Below are positions 5,621-13,909 of a stretch of DNA of 13,909 nucleotides, in pieces. The first letter of the stretch is position 1. Each line of letters begins with the position of its first letter. Below the pieces are notes generated by a model. That model was not told the DNA's origin and did not search any database. It worked only from the letters and a program-made list of their open reading frames with translations. The stretch lies in NCBI GenBank assembly GCA_016192135.1, contig JACPUR010000005.1, positions 1 to 13,909 on the forward strand. The letters are read 5' to 3'. This DNA comes from Candidatus Tectomicrobia bacterium (GTDB lineage Bacteria; UBA8248). Both the position numbers and the translations under genes were made by a program.

Positions 5621-5712
5621 TGGCGGAGAGGGAGGGATTCGAACCCCCGGTGCGGTCGCCCGCACAACAGATTTCGAGTCTGCCGCCTTAAACCGGACTC
5701 GGCCACCTCTCC
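5621..5712 (-). tRNA. tRNA-Ser (anticodon CGA)
   Basis: A complete class II tRNA of 92 nt including encoded CCA. The acceptor stem is GGAGAGG with CCTCTCC, discriminator G. The D-arm is GCC...GGC. The anticodon arm is GCAGA-CTCGAAA-TCTGT, giving anticodon CGA for codon UCG. The long variable arm GTGCGG/CCGCAC is typical of tRNA-Ser, and the T-arm has loop TTCGAAT. It starts 19 bases after the tadA stop on the same strand, so co-transcription is likely. It is not tRNA-Sec, which has a UCA anticodon and a longer acceptor arm. Confidence 0.96.
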
Positions 5713-13100: not shown

Positions 13101-13159
13101 CATCCGATCCAATGAAAGGGCTGCTACCAGGCGGGTCCGACAGATGCCCGCTCACATAA

Positions 13160-13198
13160 AAAAAGCACCGAAGGAAATCTTTTCCCCCGGTGCTTTTT
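13160..13198. terminator. Strong bidirectional intrinsic terminator
   Basis: AGCACCG (13164-13170) pairs with CGGTGCT (13188-13194), and the stem is extended by A-run/T-run pairing on both sides. Read on either strand, a GC stem is followed by at least five T. It lies 17 bases after the minus-strand peroxiredoxin-like gene and also downstream of the plus-strand MacAB-type operon, so it can serve both converging units. Confidence 0.92.
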
Positions 13199-13214: not shown

Positions 13215-13733
13215 TTACTTCTTCGCCCCGGCCAGCATCTTCTTGCGGTACTGCACCGCCTGGAGCACGTCCTGCCAGACGAGCCGCCCCAGCGGGCCGG
13301 AGCTGTAGACGGCGATGTTCACCTTGCCGTCCGGCGAGAGGAGGAAGTTGGTGGTGTGGAGATAGGACCGGGGCCGGTTCGGCGGGTCCGGCTGGTAGAA
13401 GGCGCCGGTCGTCTCCGAGACCTTCGCCGGATCGAGGCTGTGCCCGATGGGGAAGTTCACCTCGCTGTGGGCGATGGTCTTGCGGACCTCGTCCTCGGGG
13501 TCCGTGGAGCCGGCCACCACCTTGATGCCCTCGGCTGCGAGCTTTTCTCCCGCCCGGGAGAATGCGGCGAGCTGCACCAGTCAGTAGGGTCACCAGTGGC
13601 TGCGGTAGAGGAGGACGACCCCCCAGGAGCCGGCCAAGCCGTCCGGGAGGGAGATCTTCCCACCGCCCACCTTCGGGAACTCGAGGTGCGGGAACATGTC
13701 CCCCGTGTCGAGGAACTTGGCGTTCGACTTCAT
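13215..13733 (-). CDS. Peroxiredoxin-like selenoprotein with a U-x-x-U redox motif
   Basis: A 172-residue thioredoxin-fold protein of the peroxiredoxin-like (AhpC/TSA-type) group, predicted to contain two selenocysteines. Starting at ATG 13731-13733 (GGGAG 6 bases upstream) the frame reads F-P-H-L-E-F-P, G-S-W-G-V-V-L-L-Y-R-S-H-W, then TGA-CCC-TAC-TGA, then L-V-Q-L-A-A-F. The usual motif here is W-C-P-Y-C, so both cysteine codons are TGA, giving U48-P-Y-U51. The strand before the motif and everything after it (V-A-G-S-T-D-P, F-P-I-G-H, L-L-S-P-D-G-K-V, G-R-L-V-W-Q-D-V-L) is continuous in one frame. A hairpin at 13545-13562 fits a bacterial SECIS. A conventional call would begin at GTG 13577 and lose the active site. 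No signal peptide is seen. Inferred role: peroxide or disulfide reduction by a diselenide, as known for SelL-type proteins. A paralogue ends 34 bases upstream on the same strand. Confidence 0.85.
13545..13562 (-). promoter_or_regulatory. Predicted bacterial SECIS hairpin
   Basis: On the minus strand TTCTCCC-GGGC-GGGAGAA forms a perfect 7-bp stem with a four-base loop beginning with G. The loop starts 25 nt after the second in-frame TGA (13581-13583) and 34 nt after the first (13590-13592). Bacterial SECIS elements lie just downstream of the UGA inside the coding region, with a small apical loop having G in its first positions, roughly 16-37 nt from the UGA. Both TGAs fall in that range, so one hairpin could recruit SelB for both. 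Confidence 0.72.
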
Positions 13734-13767
13734 TCCGATCTCCCGCGGATTGAGGAAGGGAGCACCC

Positions 13768-13909
13768 CTACTTCGGCTGGGGGGCCATCTTCTTGTAGAA
13801 CTGGACGAGGCCCAGCACGTCCTGCCAGACGAGCCGCCCGATGGGGCCCGTGCTGTAGACGCCCACGGCGATGGTGCCGTCGGGCTTCAAGACGTAGCCC
13901 GTGCTGTGG
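13768..13909 (-). CDS. Second peroxiredoxin-like protein, C-terminal part (continues past the window)
   Basis: The last 46 residues of a paralogue of the downstream selenoprotein gene. It reads H-S-T-G-Y-V-L-K-P-D-G-T-I-A-V-G-V-Y then S-T-G-P-I-G-R-L-V-W-Q-D-V-L, against H-T-T-N-F-L-L-S-P-D-G-K-V-N-I-A-V-Y and S-S-G-P-L-G-R-L-V-W-Q-D-V-L in the neighbour. It ends in TAG at 13768-13770. The N-terminal half, including the redox motif, lies beyond the window, so I cannot say whether this copy uses Cys or Sec. The 34-base gap and shared strand indicate a tandem-duplicated pair in one transcript. Confidence 0.88.
   Translation of the reverse strand, partial: HSTGYVLKPDGTIAVGVYSTGPIGRLVWQDVLGLVQFYKKMAPQPK

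Follow-up and report, generated by a model that had tools for sequence, protein, structure and literature searches.

A peroxiredoxin-like gene with a predicted U-x-x-U selenocysteine pair and a candidate shared bSECIS hairpin in an uncultured Tectomicrobia-type lineage

Proteins that carry two selenocysteine (Sec) residues in a single redox motif are rare. SelL, a peroxiredoxin (Prx)-like selenoprotein of thioredoxin fold, is a case in which both a UxxU motif and a diselenide bond have been described. Reviews also list a pfam00578 'Prx-like thiol:disulfide oxidoreductase' that occurs with UxxC and UxxU motifs, exemplified by WP_010940744.1 (PMC13188914, PMC9312934), and a 2008 survey of GOS sequences described the Prx-like 2 family, a distant Prx homologue with UxxC and several UxxU sequences (PMC2398784). 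A literature search combining Tectomicrobia and selenoproteins gave no paper naming Tectomicrobia among the ten matches listed.

The gene described here, which we call PrxB, lies in a window of 13,909 nucleotides that forms the entire contig C5 of a 3.9 Mb, 97%-complete Candidatus Tectomicrobia genome (G000). Among the listed kinds, the nearest to PrxB is the pfam00578 Prx-like thiol:disulfide oxidoreductase, which by description shares with it an AhpC-TSA domain, a UxxC/UxxU motif and one or two Sec. The UxxU kind of selenoprotein is already known, and PrxB is an unannotated addition to the pfam00578 Prx-like kind; what differs is its setting, next to a UxxC gene with which it forms a tandem pair, in an uncultured lineage of Tectomicrobia type. 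The Prx-like 2 family of the GOS survey is defined by weak similarity to pfam04592 (the SelP N-terminal domain; PMC2398784), whereas PrxB is a clear match to pfam00578. The first-pass annotation had pointed to SelL as the nearest precedent. Although PrxB is, like SelL, a Prx-like thioredoxin-fold protein, it scored 20 bits against the SelL-related NCBIfam model NF040769, for which the curated cutoff is 120, and the genome holds a separate SelL-related UxxC selenoprotein; we therefore rejected SelL membership. That separate gene (L068, C35:108473-108976) has one TGA, in the motif LGUIFC, and TGA-containing genes of the same type were found in some members of the genome family, not all.

With TGA read as U, PrxB translates as M...HW-U48-P-Y-U51-LVQL...KK, with two in-frame TGAs, both at cysteine positions of a W-C-P-Y-C redox motif, and no others (Table 1). 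This confirms the earlier reading of a frame that is otherwise open for 172 codons; it ends in TAA and is preceded by a ribosome-site-like stretch. Codons one base change from TGA number six of 172, and the two in-frame TGAs are the redox pair. A promoter scan 5' of PrxB found none. On the 3' side lies a terminator-like repeat whose 17-nt loop exceeds the limit of the terminator scan, and which is absent from the list produced by that scan. The sole tRNA in the window is a tRNA-Ser (CGA) at 5621-5712 on the minus strand.

Table 1. Features of the PrxB locus, in positions of the 13,909-nt window.
Feature	Position	Strand	Basis or detail
PrxB, predicted UxxU peroxiredoxin-like selenoprotein gene	13215..13733	minus	172 codons, ATG start, TAA stop, AhpC-TSA match
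Predicted Sec-UGA 1 (residue 48)	13590..13592	minus	17/17 orthologues and UxxC paralogues
Predicted Sec-UGA 2 (residue 51)	13581..13583	minus	TGA in 8 orthologues, TGC/TGT in 9
GGGAG, Shine-Dalgarno-like, 6 nt 5' of the PrxB ATG	13740..13744	minus	direct reading of sequence
Terminator-like inverted repeat AAAGCACCG...CGGTGCTTT, then T run, 3' of PrxB	13158..13198	minus	direct reading
Predicted bSECIS hairpin TTCTCCC-GGGC-GGGAGAA, codons 58-63	13545..13562	minus	MFE -9.9 kcal/mol
PrxA (UxxC paralogue), 3' end, 46 codons and TAG	13768..13909	minus	contig ends inside PrxA

PrxB matches PF00578 (AhpC-TSA) at 64.5 bits, with a cutoff of 26, and its AlphaFold2 model has a mean pLDDT of 92 and a pTM of 0.89. 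The solved structure that best matches this model is that of Bcp4 (3hjp; Z 21.5, rmsd 2.4 Å, 158 residues), and comparison with Prx structures gave Z scores of about 19-21.5 over 150-160 residues, nearly the whole chain. On the basis of the model we are confident in the predicted peroxiredoxin fold. PrxB shares this fold with canonical Sec-peroxiredoxins, whose motif is TxxU, and in a profile alignment with 1-Cys Prx the peroxidatic Cys pairs with residue 51 of PrxB and the Thr of PxxxTxxC with residue 48. Unlike the canonical proteins, however, PrxB has Sec at the Thr position also, without the Thr and Pro: the segment reads RSHWUPYU, in which R44 occupies the place of the Pro and U48 that of the Thr. 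PrxB thus sets a thioredoxin-like motif in a peroxiredoxin scaffold, in keeping with the label 'Prx-like thiol:disulfide oxidoreductase'; because its active site departs from the canonical PxxxTxxC, peroxidase activity of PrxB is uncertain.

Homologue searches aligned both CxxC and UxxC sequences to the UxxU of PrxB and recovered TGA at the same two sites in other genomes. PrxB is present in 16 same-family genomes besides G000, and the distribution of codons at the two sites over these 17 copies, the first invariant and the second either TGA or a Cys codon, agrees with the earlier argument that the pair is beyond chance. The eight copies with TGA at residue 51 (G000, G001, G002, G004, G005, G007, G008 and G012) span four genera. 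On a tree, the UxxU label has to change three times, and well-supported branches force two of these changes; genus g3 has UxxU in three genomes and UxxC in one. More distant PrxB homologues carry UxxC in other families and CPFC on alphaproteobacterial plasmids, and other Sec homologues have the motifs UHYC or UPFC. Both genomes of the order of G090, which has two in all, are UxxC. Further UxxU members were not found at E <= 1e-25 in two sets of 385 genomes centred on G379 and G090, which overlap with the first genome set. In an unrelated family, two adjacent Prx-like frames with UPFC and UTLC each contain an in-frame TGA (L041, contig C101 of G056).

The end of PrxA lies 34 nt upstream of PrxB on the same strand. 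The first-pass annotation, whose reading of a two-Sec gene stands, had overlooked both this tandem UxxC paralogue and the shared hairpin described below. Relatives with complete contigs have an intact PrxA-PrxB pair in which a complete PrxA precedes PrxB; PrxA is UxxC in every copy with a readable motif, and its PrxB partner is UxxU or UxxC. PrxA probably works in the same pathway as PrxB. In G000 itself, the same PrxA 3' end stands at an edge of both C5 and C28, and two near-identical PrxA 5' parts carrying W-U-P-Y-C open contigs C8 and C31. This genome has at least two near-identical PrxA copies, at which the assembly is broken; one 3' end runs into PrxB, and the other, on C28, is followed by a terminator-like repeat and a convergent gene.

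Downstream of the two UGAs, the codons TTC TCC CGG GCG GGA GAA fold into a mismatch-free 7-bp stem capped by a GGGC loop; the distance to this loop is 34 nt for UGA1 and 25 nt for UGA2. The bSECIS model calls for a stem of 4-16 bp, a loop of 3-9 nt with a G in its first two positions, a distance of 16-37 nt between UGA and loop, and an MFE <= -7.5 kcal/mol (PMC13188914), and the PrxB hairpin satisfies it for both UGAs. Geometry by itself is weak evidence, as 10% of positions drawn at random from this GC-rich window carry a comparable hairpin; the strong point is the absence of synonymous change. The hairpin sequence is identical in 15 of the 17 PrxB copies, and synonymous differences in codons 58-63 amount to 0 of 752 same-residue pairs, against 4125 of 9551 (43%) elsewhere in the gene, these comparisons not being independent since the orthologues are kin. 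No six-codon block of PrxB is lower, and the comparable ones are merely those that overlap it. All 18 hairpin bases are kept in the G005 copy at ~65% protein identity, and in the divergent G003 copy this place is taken by another hairpin with a 5-bp stem, TTCGC-GCGG-GCGAA. The hairpin is under selection.

It could be that the hairpin is kept for another reason, such as mRNA stability or a regulatory or protein site, and that another structure acts as the true SECIS. This would accord with its identity in UxxC and UxxU copies, with the frequency of such hairpins by chance in GC-rich sequence, and with PrxA, which is likewise a UGA gene and has no such invariant hairpin. However, for each of the two UGAs the position, the G-first loop and the stem all agree with the bSECIS model, and the different hairpin of G003 stands in the same place; we regard a role other than Sec decoding as unlikely. 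Since copies with UxxC share the hairpin of those with UxxU, this element seems to have been present for UGA1, and UGA2 lies within its reach. We lean towards a single SECIS shared by both UGAs, in which SelB with Sec-tRNA would use one hairpin to decode the two, so that Sec could take the place of the second Cys of PrxB with no new SECIS being needed. In its full form, which we favour to about the same modest degree, this proposal holds that one strongly selected bSECIS decodes two UGAs nine nt apart, that a neighbouring Cys codon would thus be almost free to become Sec, and that residue 51 has undergone at least two or three switches between Sec and Cys in this lineage with the hairpin unchanged.

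A narrower reading would make U48 the only Sec in practice, with UGA2 mostly terminating translation or being poorly decoded, so that the product is truncated or the second Sec marginal. That close relatives differ in having Sec or Cys at residue 51 is compatible with this, as is the demand that two UGAs so close together both be decoded. Yet TGA occupies residue 51 in eight orthologues from four genera, the part downstream is conserved in all of these, and the distance from UGA2 to the hairpin loop is well within the 16-37 nt range, all of which makes this reading very improbable.

We also considered a dead or mis-sequenced gene, in which two nonsense changes or assembly errors had converted Cys codons to TGA. 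The source is a MAG-like draft whose contig ends in the collapsed PrxA repeat adjoining PrxB, and one relative has a broken PrxB frame, a frameshift in the C-terminal part that may be assembly error or decay (L040, contig C320 of G016). Against this stand the same TGAs in separately assembled genomes of several genera, the lack of synonymous change in the hairpin, and low dN/dS on both sides of the TGAs: in comparisons of G000 with four relatives, where calculable, dN/dS was 0.16-0.37 on the 5' side and 0.11-0.28 on the 3' side. Both halves of PrxB are under purifying selection, and the orthologues refute the pseudogene or error reading for practical purposes, leaving it hardly any probability. 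The TGA stops, the orthologues and the dN/dS values likewise ruled out a split gene.

G000 has a tRNA-Sec (selC) at 74.8 bits, against a 47-bit cutoff, together with selA (540 bits) and selB (389 bits), which are adjacent on C15. In this 96.8%-complete assembly no selD scored above the cutoff (best 83.5 bits, cutoff 125). Nine of the 11 same-family relatives searched have a selD with a TGA of its own (G001-G006, G008, G009 and G011), G007 also having no SelD above the cutoff, and the missing selD of G000 is likely due to an assembly gap. A deiodinase-like frame with an in-frame TGA (FGAITUPPF) at about 230-900 on the minus strand of C28 (L020) is likely a further selenoprotein. From the Sec machinery, the SelL-related gene and the deiodinase-like frame, G000 appears to use Sec in several selenoproteins. 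As the first-pass annotation had observed, TGA is a normal stop in the window, where it ends several ordinary genes that we take to be oppB-, tadA- and cyclase-like genes and an ABC ATPase. Genome-wide reassignment of UGA to an amino acid, for which no supporting point was found, can be dismissed on these stops, on the Sec machinery, and on the TGA that follows the C-terminus of PrxB in the close relatives G001 and G002, at the expected stop position.

Collectively, the orthologous UGAs, the Sec-decoding genes, selection on both sides of the UGAs, the selected hairpin downstream and the predicted fold lead us, on computational grounds, to conclude with a probability of roughly 0.93 that PrxB is a 172-residue peroxiredoxin-fold protein with Sec at both positions of W-U-P-Y-U. 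The original proposal of a U-x-x-U peroxiredoxin-like selenoprotein is likewise supported by the alignment of homologues, the shared TGA sites and the presence of tRNA-Sec, SelA and SelB. In the catalytic cycle that we propose, the reduced form of PrxB would use its exposed U48 selenolate to attack a substrate, either a peroxide or a disulfide, U51 would resolve the intermediate as a putative U48-U51 diselenide, and a donor of the thioredoxin or thioredoxin-reductase type would reduce this bond; by analogy, we hold this sequence of steps to be slightly favoured.

Standard gene calling would read both UGAs as stops, and such genes are therefore likely to be lost or truncated in the automatic annotation of these uncultured bacteria. 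To the known UxxU selenoproteins PrxB adds an operon with UxxC and UxxU genes in tandem, a second position that has switched repeatedly between Sec and Cys in close relatives, and a hairpin placed for two UGAs. The clade forms a natural comparison, in which UxxC and UxxU orthologues stand in the same operon with the same hairpin and the UxxC paralogue serves as an internal control. The PrxB clade thus offers a direct test of what a second Sec costs and gains, and of the decoding of two UGAs from one SECIS.
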